Virus record (IMG/VR): IMGVR_UViG_3300009124_000076
Span: 1-28,324 of that record
Source of the DNA: a virus
Direction: 5' to 3' (one strand)
DNA length: 28,324 nt
In this document: one piece after another, positions 19,429 through 28,324 of the stretch
Position numbering within the stretch: the first letter of the stretch is position 1
Layout: every line of letters begins with the position of its first letter
Notes under the pieces: generated by a model
What the model was told of the DNA's origin: nothing
The model's database searches: none
What the model saw: only the letters and a program-made list of their open reading frames with translations
Program-made: the position numbers and the translations under genes

Positions 19429-19729
19429 TACTACTGAGATCCCGGATACTATCCTAAAGCAGATAATAAAGGATCTGGAGGGGTATGATCTATGCCAGGG
19501 GGCTCTAGAGATCTCCAGGCAGAGGATCCGGATACTGGAGGAGGTAATAGTGCTGCAGAGAAAAGAGATACAGATGCTCCAGGATAATAGGCATGATCAG
19601 GATGCTAGGGAGAGGATCCGGATGCAGCAGATCCAGGTGCTCCAGGATAAAAATAAGCAGCTGCAGATCCAGAGGGATCTATCTATAGGGGTATCTCTGC
19701 TCCTGATCCTGATCATAGCTATCCTCTAG
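19328..19729 (+). CDS. Second lysis-module coiled-coil protein with C-terminal anchor
   Basis: Up to 133 aa, in a different frame and overlapping the preceding gene. It contains a long Gln/Arg/Leu-rich coiled coil (about residues 55-115, with EEVIVLQRKEIQMLQ and QIQVLQDKNKQLQIQ) and a C-terminal hydrophobic helix (SIGVSLLLILIIAIL). The start is uncertain: ATGs at 19328, 19367, 19376 and 19397 are all in frame. Similar proteins start near MDTW/IPDT, favouring 19376 or 19397. It may partner the upstream spanin-like protein, but no outer-membrane lipobox is visible, so it is not a classic o-spanin. It is the last gene of the late operon. Confidence 0.55.
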   Translation: MRLKLIALITTLQMISMDGSAGGMDTWILDTASNTTEIPDTILKQIIKDLEGYDLCQGALEISRQRIRILEEVIVLQRKEIQMLQDNRHDQDARERIRMQQIQVLQDKNKQLQIQRDLSIGVSLLLILIIAIL

Positions 19730-19753
19730 AAAGTTTAAACCAGAGTTTAAACC
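19729..19753 (+). repeat. 25-bp direct repeat, copy 1 (two GTTTAAAC palindromes)
   Basis: It contains GTTTAAAC at 19733-19740 and again at 19745-19752, spaced by CAGA, so the octamer recurs every 12 bp. All 25 bases are identical to copy 2 at 19998-20022. The pair brackets the tRNA-like att core. It is a likely integrase arm site or regulator-binding site. Confidence 0.85.
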
Positions 19754-19760
19754 AGGCAAA

Positions 19761-19794
19761 AGAGGCAGCTACTGTATCCGGTGTAACTGCCTCT
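19761..19794 (-). terminator. Hairpin beside the tRNA remnant, minus-strand terminator-like
   Basis: AGAGGCAG (19761-19768) and CTGCCTCT (19787-19794) form a perfect 8-bp stem. Read on the minus strand the stem is followed by TTTTG, as in an intrinsic terminator placed about 10 bases after the tRNA 3' end. It may be the host tRNA gene's own terminator, carried within the attachment site so that it is rebuilt on integration. Confidence 0.5.
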
Positions 19795-19803
19795 CTATCA
19801 GTG

Positions 19804-19845
19804 TGGGGCATACTGGATTTGAACCAGTGGCCTCTTACCTGTCAA
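19804..19845 (-). tRNA. 3' half of a host tRNA (probably tRNA-Val GAC): attP core
   Basis: On the minus strand this reads as the 3' half of a tRNA. The anticodon loop TTGACAG is at 19845-19839, the 3' anticodon-stem strand GTAAG is next, and the variable loop is AGGCC. A perfect T arm follows (ACTGG, loop TTCAAAT, CCAGT), then the acceptor strand ATGCCCC and discriminator A at 19804. From spacing, the anticodon is GAC (Val). No matching 5' half (GGGGCAT) is found upstream on that strand, so it is not a working tRNA. A partial 3' tRNA beside a tyrosine integrase is the classic signature of attP. CCA is not encoded. Confidence 0.82.
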
Positions 19846-19865
19846 GCATAGGGCTCCGCTAAATA

Positions 19866-19898
19866 CTGTAGAGAGCTGTAATCCGCTGTAATGCTGCA
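19866..19898 (+). repeat. Helically phased CTGTA repeats next to the att core
   Basis: CTGTA occurs at 19866, 19876 and 19886, exactly 10 bp apart, with a near copy CTGCA at 19894. The same motif recurs at 22032, 22053, 22063 and 22074 in the repressor/early control region, there spaced about 21, 10 and 11 bp. This suggests one DNA-binding protein acting at both places. Confidence 0.55.
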
Positions 19899-19974
19899 GA
19901 TCATGAGTATCCATATAGGCTCCAGGCTATTTTATGGTATCTATAAAGCAGGATAAATACAGTATCTGCTCTAT

Positions 19975-19982
19975 TATATTTG
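19975..19982 (+). promoter_or_regulatory. Possible integrase promoter -7 element
   Basis: TATATTTG fits the Bacteroidota primary sigma factor -7 consensus TAnnTTTG. The predicted start of transcription would be near 19989, just before the second 25-bp repeat, which would then act as an operator in the leader. No good TTTG is seen at the -33 distance, so the call is weak. Confidence 0.35.
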
Positions 19983-19997
19983 TGTTTATATACTCTG

Positions 19998-20022
19998 GAA
20001 AGTTTAAACCAGAGTTTAAACC
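19998..20022 (+). repeat. 25-bp direct repeat, copy 2 (two GTTTAAAC palindromes)
   Basis: Identical to 19729-19753. GTTTAAAC lies at 20002-20009 and 20014-20021. It ends 7 bp before the integrase ATG, so a protein bound here could both form the attachment complex and block integrase translation or transcription. Confidence 0.85.
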
Positions 20023-20029
20023 GGGATAA

Positions 20030-21202
20030 ATGGCAGGCAGGTATAAGGCAGTACTGTATAAAAGTAAGAGGCTGGCAGATGGAAAGCATCCGGTAATGAT
20101 CAGGATCTCCATTTATGGAGGAGTAAAGTATATCAGTACAGGGATCCGGTGTGCTGCTGATCAGTGGGATGATCATGCTGGAGCTCCGCTGGGAGCATCT
20201 GCCAGGGAGCGTAATCTGATAAATCTCCGGATATATGAGGCAGGCCAGGCTCTAGTAGATATGCTCTCTGGAGAGGTGCAAACGGTGGAGAGATGGGCGG
20301 AGCTGATCCAGGGGGATAAAAAGCAGGAGCCTCTGGTGCTGGATTATTATGATCAGATAATAAAGGATCTGGAGGCTGCAGGATCCAGGGGTAATGCTAA
20401 GCTGTATAGATCGGTAAAGAGTATCCTAAAGGGGATGCCTGGTATGAGTAAAAAGAGGATCCGGGATCTAGATTATAGATTTATCCTGGCCTGGGAGCAG
20501 GATCTGAGATCCAGAGGCAGGAGATCTAATACGGTATCAGTATATATGCGTAATCTCCGGGCGGTATGGAATAGGGCTATAAAGGAGGGGCTGGTAGATC
20601 AGAGCTCCTATCCATTTGCCAGGTATAAGATCCCTAAAGCAGAGAAAAATAAGAGAGCGCTGGCACTGGATGAGATCCAGAGGATCCGGGATCTGCAGCT
20701 ATCCGGATCTGCAGCTAAGGCCAGAGATCTATATATGCTCTCCTTTTATCTCCAGGGCATTAATTTAATGGATCTGCTCATGAGCGGTAAAGGATCCCGG
20801 ATCCGGGGGAGGCTAGAGTACAGGAGATCTAAAACAGGTAAGTATTATAGCGTGAGGATCTATCCGGAGGCAGATCAGATCCTGCAGAGGTATAAAGGCC
20901 AGGCCTATCTGCTGGATCTGCTAGATGGCTATCCGGATCCGCTAAAGCAGGTGTATAATTATACTAAAACAGTAAACAAGTATTTAAGGCATATAGGAGA
21001 GGAGCTGGCACTGAGCAGGAAATTAACCTACTATACTGCCAGGCATAGCTACGCTACTGCAGCCAGGGATCTAGGGTATCCTAGAGATCTAATAGCAGCA
21101 GCTCTAGGGCATAGTGCTAGAGATATAACAGATACCTATTTAGCAGATTATGATCTCCAGGATCTAGATCAGATGCTCCGGGCGGTATTGGATGCGCTGT
21201 AA
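20030..21202 (+). CDS. int: Tyrosine site-specific integrase
   Basis: Inserts the phage genome at the tRNA-type attachment site just upstream. 390 aa. The N-terminal arm DNA-binding domain (residues 5-47) has the Bacteroidota pattern YKSKRLADGKHPVMIRISIYG...ISTGIR, the SAM-like core-binding domain covers about 103-195, and the catalytic domain 205-390. Catalytic positions seen are Lys268 (RSKTGK), Arg338 in YTARHSYAT, His361 in ALGHS and the nucleophile Tyr370 in TDTYLADY. The first catalytic Arg is replaced by Gln242 (FYLQGINLMDL). I recall relatives with FYLIGIN here, so the change may be a clade feature. The gene is convergent with the repressor: their ends abut at 21202/21203. Confidence 0.93.
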   Translation: MAGRYKAVLYKSKRLADGKHPVMIRISIYGGVKYISTGIRCAADQWDDHAGAPLGASARERNLINLRIYEAGQALVDMLSGEVQTVERWAELIQGDKKQEPLVLDYYDQIIKDLEAAGSRGNAKLYRSVKSILKGMPGMSKKRIRDLDYRFILAWEQDLRSRGRRSNTVSVYMRNLRAVWNRAIKEGLVDQSSYPFARYKIPKAEKNKRALALDEIQRIRDLQLSGSAAKARDLYMLSFYLQGINLMDLLMSGKGSRIRGRLEYRRSKTGKYYSVRIYPEADQILQRYKGQAYLLDLLDGYPDPLKQVYNYTKTVNKYLRHIGEELALSRKLTYYTARHSYATAARDLGYPRDLIAAALGHSARDITDTYLADYDLQDLDQMLRAVLDAL

Positions 21203-21988
21203 TTATTGTGCAGATTTCTTTATGATCCCTTTTACTAGGTATAGATCCTGGATAGCATCCAGCTCTATTATAATATCGTCAAAATTAGGGTTAGTAGCAG
21301 TAAGCAGTAGATGATCCGGGCTATCTAGTTTGCGGATCCTGCGGATCATATTTAGATCCTGAGTAGACAAATAAAATATTTGTCCGTAGGGTATTATAGA
21401 TCTATCTCTGATAACTTTTAGTACTGCTACATCTCCAGCACTGATATCCGGATACATATCATCTCCGGATATCGTAATAGCTATCTGGCAGTCTGAAAAT
21501 GCTGGGTATTTAAACCTATCTAAAGTAGTATCATGATCCATATCAGAGCTATTTATAAGGGCACTAGCTCTAGTAGAGTTTATAGTGCTCATAGGTATTA
21601 ATGGAATGCCTAGAGGATCCTCTAGGCTGCTCTTATTATGGTCGCTGCTAATATCGCTAATAATATGATAATCCTCATCTGGCTCCTGGATCTGGTTGAG
21701 GTTTTTAATCTCTAGGGAGATCTCCTGGAGTTTATGCATAATAATATCTGCTCTCTGGCCTGATTTATCCAGTGATATCTCCTGCTCCAGCTGATCTGCC
21801 TGGGCTGGATATATGCTAAAGGCTCTGCTGTAGGTTTTGAGGGGGCACTGGTTACGGCCTTTTAAAATATTGCTGAGCATCTGAGGGCTAGTGCCTAGAT
21901 CCTCTGCTATTTTCTTATAACTCCTGCCAGTAGATTTAACTAGAGTAATTAGCTCTATAAATCCCTGATTTAATATCTCCTGATCCAT
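21203..21988 (-). CDS. CI-like repressor with degenerate S24 peptidase domain
   Basis: Lysogeny repressor candidate. 261 aa. The N-terminal helix-turn-helix (about residues 22-46) has SYKKIAEDLGTSPQMLSNILKGRN. A Gln/Ile/Leu-rich linker follows. The C-terminal LexA/S24 fold (about 165-258) has ITISGDDMYPDISAGDVAVLK, PYGQIFYLSTQDLNMIRRIRK and NPNFDD...LYLVKGIIKK. In active relatives the first motif reads GDSM and the later one VKR. Here the nucleophile position is Asp177 and the general-base Lys position is Arg216, so self-cleavage is not expected. The gene diverges from the early operon across a 113-bp control region. It may be induced by an antirepressor or another signal rather than RecA. 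Confidence 0.88.
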   Translation of the reverse strand: MDQEILNQGFIELITLVKSTGRSYKKIAEDLGTSPQMLSNILKGRNQCPLKTYSRAFSIYPAQADQLEQEISLDKSGQRADIIMHKLQEISLEIKNLNQIQEPDEDYHIISDISSDHNKSSLEDPLGIPLIPMSTINSTRASALINSSDMDHDTTLDRFKYPAFSDCQIAITISGDDMYPDISAGDVAVLKVIRDRSIIPYGQIFYLSTQDLNMIRRIRKLDSPDHLLLTATNPNFDDIIIELDAIQDLYLVKGIIKKSAQ

Positions 21989-28299: not shown

Positions 28300-28324
28300 C
28301 TGTCTCTTATACACATCTCCGAGC
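28300..28324 (+). other. Sequencing adapter (Nextera mosaic end plus i7-side adapter), not genomic
   Basis: The first 19 bases are the reverse complement of the Tn5 mosaic end (CTGTCTCTTATACACATCT), and the next six (CCGAGC) match the start of the Nextera read-2 adapter. This is library sequence left on the contig end and should be trimmed. It marks the end of a read through a short insert. Confidence 0.97.

Follow-up and report, generated by a model that had tools for sequence, protein, structure and literature searches.

A predicted attachment site at the anticodon loop of tRNA-Val(GAC) in an uncultured temperate Bacteroidota phage

Results

A half tRNA between paired repeats upstream of an integrase gene

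The window, by which we mean the whole 28,324-nt stretch of viral DNA that was analysed, contains the 3′ half of a tRNA-Val(GAC) gene adjoining a tyrosine integrase gene, together with a terminator-like hairpin, a 42-bp direct repeat in two copies and a gene for a CI-like repressor (Table 1). The half tRNA reads TTGACAGGTAAGAGGCCACTGGTTCAAATCCAGTATGCCCCA on the minus strand. Its loop positions 32–38 are TTGACAG, with anticodon GAC, followed by the 3′ strand of the anticodon stem (GTAAG), the variable loop (AGGCC), a T arm (ACTGG-TTCAAAT-CCAGT), the 3′ strand of the acceptor stem (ATGCCCC) and the discriminator A. The T arm, acceptor strand and anticodon loop described in the earlier note are thus all present, on the strand it gave, and its assignment of the anticodon as GAC agrees with complete Bacteroidota tRNA-Val(GAC) genes, which match at up to 38 of 42 positions. 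The 5′ half is missing, as had also been stated: ARAGORN found no complete tRNA in the 28,324-nt window, and the Rfam tRNA model covers the T-arm part only (model positions 43–63, E 0.07), while another Rfam scan gave no tRNA match in the attP region at E values up to 5.

Table 1. Features of the predicted attachment site and adjoining genes (window coordinates)
Feature	Position	Strand	Basis
Integrase-distal arm repeat, copy 1 of 42-bp direct repeat	19720..19761		Flanking-repeat score
Terminator-like hairpin, gagaggcag...ctgcctctt then TTGCC	19760..19795	minus	-21.9 kcal/mol
3′ half of tRNA-Val(GAC), attP common core	19804..19845	minus	Match to Bacteroidota tRNA-Val(GAC) genes
TGCTTGACAGG, stretch matching the most frequent Bacteroidales tRNA-Val(GAC) genes without a break	19838..19848	minus	MAG attL/attR repeats share this TGC start
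Integrase-proximal arm repeat, copy 2 (88% identical)	19989..20030		Flanking-repeat score; similar placement in L093, JC749
Tyrosine integrase, 390 aa	20030..21202	plus	Arm-DNA-bind_5, Phage_int_SAM_5 and Phage_integrase domains; Pfam, PHROGs
CI-like repressor with Peptidase_S24 domain	21203..21988	minus	Domain match

The core is single-copy in the window, where the next best placement has 19 mismatches. Against the 3′ half of a Bacteroidota tRNA-Val(GAC) it has 4 mismatches, compared with 18–20 at best in 10 shuffled windows (at most 24 of 42 positions matched), so the resemblance to a tRNA is not due to chance. Single-strand folding of the attP region was uninformative (z -0.93).

Each copy of the direct repeat holds two GTTTAAACC units with a 12-bp period, at 19733–19741 and 19745–19753 in copy 1 and at 20002–20010 and 20014–20022 in copy 2, which reaches the integrase start codon. 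Measured from the centre of the anticodon loop, the units lie at -105/-93 and +164/+176, and the offsets read from the sequences of two related loci, L093 and strain JC749, are similar. The flanking-repeat score across the core is 28, whereas 60 shuffles never exceeded 10. These paired units are probable arm-type sites, to which the integrase would bind. Negative autoregulation of int has been described for tRNA-associated prophages (PMC2951348), and the inner pair, abutting the int start codon, would suit such control.

The hairpin begins 8 nt past the tRNA 3′ end and would terminate the transcript of a rebuilt tRNA; the built-in terminator scan, with a loop limit of 8 nt, omits it. Identity between the window and tRNA genes of Bacteroidales metagenome-assembled genomes (MAGs) also starts at TGC, and we infer a crossover, including its exact point, within the 7-nt anticodon loop at 19839–19845. 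A core that occurs once and is flanked by arms on either side marks the site as attP rather than attL or attR.

The integrase and repressor

The earlier note had placed a tyrosine integrase beside the half tRNA, and both Pfam and PHROGs identify one there. Its N-terminal arm-binding domain (PF17293, Arm-DNA-bind_5) spans residues 8–67 with an E value of 1.4e-11. R338, H361 and Y370 are invariant in the integrase alignment; the Arg I position aligns with Asn245, and each of the six aligned sequences has either Asn or Ser there, leaving incomplete the full catalytic set, Arg I included, by which lambda-like (heterobivalent) integrases are recognised. Substitution of Arg I is known for IntDOT. 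By analogy, the window integrase would resemble the lambda-like kind without Arg I, and since neither it nor any aligned relative has Arg at this position, its activity is assumed from the family. The closest IMG/VR integrase, that of L093, is only 34% identical, so site specificity is likewise argued by analogy. In the search of viral contigs for integrases, a single-protein query returned no matches and an alignment query succeeded. The Peptidase_S24 domain of the CI-like repressor supports a temperate phage.

Half tRNAs are common upstream of related integrases

We surveyed 70 loci that encode related integrases and have 200 nt or more of sequence upstream, among them the window, JC749, the MAGs fen_957 and UBA4772 and two Bacteroides phages. 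The T arm of a half tRNA was found upstream of int at 32 of the 70 loci versus 1 of 70 when shuffled, and a hairpin with a T-rich tail follows the half tRNA at 22 of 33 sites, versus 8% in shuffles. The target tRNAs vary widely and were read as Pro, Ser, Asp, Arg, Lys, Met, Gly and Val, among others. L093 has the same layout as the window: its half tRNA is that of a tRNA-Pro and is flanked on each side by a pair of CACGCGAA units, of which the inner pair adjoins the start codon. A strict GG/CC T-arm pattern misses this half tRNA, and a relaxed one detects it. Seven other loci also beat all their shuffles on the flanking-repeat score and the remaining loci do not; the arm layout is thus clear in the window and several relatives, not in all.

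The half tRNA of the window and int point in opposite directions. In a tree of 32 integrases, loci of this arrangement and loci with both in the same direction fall on either side of a single branch with 97/92 support, and none of 500 shuffles gave as low a value for this split; the tree rests on a small sample and includes several long branches. An example of the other orientation is Bacteroides phage BS-TP2 (PQ571275.1), whose integrase belongs to the same family. Its attP resembles that of the window in having GTGCAAAT units on both sides and a terminator-like hairpin, and differs in that its half tRNA, with loop TTCCCAA read as Gly-CCC, runs in the same direction as int.

Integrated elements with regenerated tRNAs

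Elements with integrases of the same family occupy the same tRNA-Val(GAC) in two MAGs, both Bacteroidales. In fen_957, a 21,937-bp element is bounded by exact 91-bp repeats. Of these, the first makes up the remainder of a full tRNA-Val, and the second is a half tRNA without its 5′ half, beside a frame-broken integrase. Both start TGC|TTGACAG, three bases ahead of the anticodon loop. As no phage structure was seen by eye in its other genes, this element is taken to be an island rather than a phage. In UBA4772, contigs L029 and L047 share a 48-bp core with the same left boundary as in fen_957. On the attL side, L029 carries the full tRNA, the hairpin and two TTTGCAAAC units; L047 carries the half tRNA, a unit matching TTTGCAAAC and an integrase 30% identical to that of the window. 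The two contigs would be the two ends of one element.

A regenerated tRNA with a displaced 3′ fragment is thus seen in two related-integrase elements at the same tRNA, and also at tRNA-Thr in Catalimonadaceae strain JC749. There, loci L178 and L177 lie at about 544.8 and 610.9 kb of G007:C12. Beside an intact tRNA-Thr(tgt) lie a hairpin and ATTTGATAC repeats. A half tRNA-Thr with a related integrase and repeats on both sides stands 66 kb away. The arrangement resembles insertions stacked on one another, with a separate tRNA-repair cassette left by each.

The target gene and the host

A relaxed pattern of the core recovered 70 stretches from species genomes, nearly all in Bacteroidota and mostly in Bacteroidales MAGs, with Cytophagales-type genomes (Roseivirga, Reichenbachiella and Catalimonadaceae JC749) also represented. 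Intact matches run through ARAGORN were called tRNA-Val(gac), and joining host 5′ halves to the window half produced tRNA-Val(gac) in 61 of 62 cases. The best complete Bacteroidota genes agree with the core at 38 of 42 positions. The nearest tRNA-Val relatives mostly end ACGCCCCA; that of Roseivirga seohaensis ends ATGCCCCA and differs from the core elsewhere.

The identical Bacteroidota tRNA-Val for which the earlier note called was not found. The exact 42-mer occurs in none of the contigs of a collection of 84,980 species, and no sequence within 3 mismatches was present in 396 sampled Bacteroidota genomes or in 118 genomes from the order to which strain JC749 belongs. No tRNA among those recovered unites the GTAAG stem with the ATGCCCC acceptor. 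In the viral contig collection neither the exact 42-mer nor the relaxed Val patterns gave a match, so no other searched viral contig shows this attP. Integrated elements bounded by attL/attR at tRNA-Val were seen in the two Bacteroidales MAGs with same-family integrases; a lysogen of the window phage or a close relative was not found in the genomes searched, and the TerL search gave only four distant relatives at 34–36% identity. Further indications of the host agree with this group: among annotated phages, related integrases are carried mainly by Bacteroides phages, and the capsid match listed first is Cellulophaga phage phi39:1. That the host belongs to the Bacteroidota is well supported. 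The proposal that the target tRNA would lead directly to the host therefore stands for the phylum and for tRNA-Val(GAC), and fails for the species, which the attachment site does not give.

Word avoidance and the four differences

The window genome contains GAC/GTC at 0.13 of expectation, an avoidance that is strong and even across 1–28324; of the 166 sequences of 3.5 kb or longer that were compared, none of the others has a GAC value below 0.69. CAA, CGA and GAA stand at about 0.3 of expectation, and GATC is about 2–7 fold above it. Asp is encoded by GAT 497 times and by GAC 7 times, and Val by GTA 302 times and by GTC twice. Host composition, restriction avoidance and mutation bias are candidate causes of this avoidance. 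In the main genes, only 25 of the 444 Val codons are GTT or GTC, the two read by tRNA-Val(GAC), a scarcity that is probably a by-product of the word avoidance.

Relative to the closest common Bacteroidota variant, the core carries C40T, T47C, G57A and C67T (tRNA positions), all transitions. All four preserve pairing, and each deletes an avoided word or a CG; the words lost at these positions are CAA, GTC, CGA/GAA and CG. Among 10,020 structure-keeping variants with four transitions, 27 (0.27%) fit the phage composition as well, a result that is suggestive only, since the reference was the closest sampled variant and the test was conceived after the differences had been seen.

Discussion

We conclude that 19720–20030 is very probably the complete attP of a temperate Bacteroidota siphovirus that integrates at the anticodon loop of tRNA-Val(GAC). 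The claim of the earlier note that the half tRNA is the attP core gains its footing from the attL/attR pairs in MAGs, the flanking repeats and the excess of half tRNAs in the survey over shuffled sequence. In the proposed mechanism, the integrase would bind the paired arm sites on either side of the core and act at 19804–19845, with strand exchange in the 7-nt anticodon loop of the host tRNA-Val(GAC) gene (attB). Integration would join the host 5′ half to the phage 3′ half and so yield a functional tRNA-Val, whose transcript would stop at the terminator supplied by the phage. The host's own 3′ half would be moved to the opposite prophage end, next to the integrase.

Two other accounts of the half tRNA were weighed and rejected. 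Since tRNA genes do occur in phages, and no lysogen was seen in the genomes searched, it might be the decayed relic of a phage-encoded tRNA gene with no role in integration. We consider this highly improbable: the half tRNA is cut off at the anticodon loop, at precisely the point seen in the integrated relatives, it sits between matched repeats, related integrases carry halves of many different tRNAs at the same place, and pairing survives the four changes that separate it from the closest common Bacteroidota variant, unlike in decay. Almost no credence is due to the suggestion that the window derives from a chromosome and represents one end of a prophage (attR or attL), with the half tRNA as the displaced host fragment. 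A half copy does stand beside the integrase at attR in integrated relatives, but the window has phage genes on both sides of its core (an endolysin side and an integrase side), arm repeats on both flanks and a single core copy.

How the four differences arose is a separate matter, and is compatible with the attP assignment either way. The phage half may have drifted from the host gene toward the word avoidance of the phage while pairing was kept through G-U, in which case the tRNA-Val(GAC) expressed in a lysogen would be recoded and chimeric, replacing the host's own; we hold the chances of this to be evenly balanced. Alternatively, an unsampled lineage may have a tRNA-Val that equals the core exactly, the differences then coming from the host, which we regard as possible, if somewhat short of an even chance. 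Many Bacteroidota species are unsampled, none of the searched genomes contains the exact 42-mer, and the Roseivirga lineage also has the ATGCCCCA end; against this, no tRNA was found with both the GTAAG stem and the ATGCCCC acceptor, and the differences fit the phage composition within the top 0.27% of variants. The latter objection falls if the host shares that composition, and such a host would explain the four differences equally well.

The site predicted here is an ordinary yet unusually complete tRNA-anticodon-loop attP, and represents a known strategy. Anticodon-loop ('A') tDNA attachment sites of tyrosine integrases are described in the Islander work (PMC4383910, citing Williams 2002). 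They share with the window the crossover in the anticodon loop, the 3′ tDNA fragment borne by the element, regeneration of the tRNA at one end and displacement of the fragment to the other; nothing essential differs, and what is specific to the window is the use of tRNA-Val(GAC) by this integrase branch and the arm/terminator layout. NBU1 and CTnDOT also have Bacteroides tyrosine integrases, and NBU1 likewise uses a tRNA gene; its site is the 3′ end of a tRNA-Leu gene, unlike the anticodon loop proposed here (PMC10865867). The 10K genomic island of Riemerella anatipestifer pairs a Bacteroidota integrase with a tRNA gene (Arg) and a 53-bp att repeat, and a plasmid was used to show its integration (PMC6764341). 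On our own reading of the repeat as printed there, it ends in a hairpin with a T run. It differs from the window in being an island at another tRNA, and anticodon-loop crossover and arm sites are absent from the passages available (PMC6764341). In tRNA-dependent lysogeny, the core is too short to rebuild the tRNA and the phage carries the cognate full tRNA gene (PMC10865867); this does not apply here, because the window carries the whole 3′ half without a full tRNA gene.

These results fix an attachment site for an uncultured Bacteroidota phage, at the strength given above. A terminator-like hairpin and a 3′ half tRNA just upstream of int form a layout common in this integrase family, joined in several members by paired arm repeats, and because it is shared, attP, target tRNA and host phylum should be readable from many orphan phage contigs. 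An exact tRNA match can fail as a host finder, since the half carried by the phage need not be identical to the host genes that have been sampled.

Finally, 28300–28324 resembles the Nextera transposase adapter, CTGTCTCTTATACACATCTCCGAGC. The contig end is therefore artificial and the gene at the window start is cut; this gene is probably terS.
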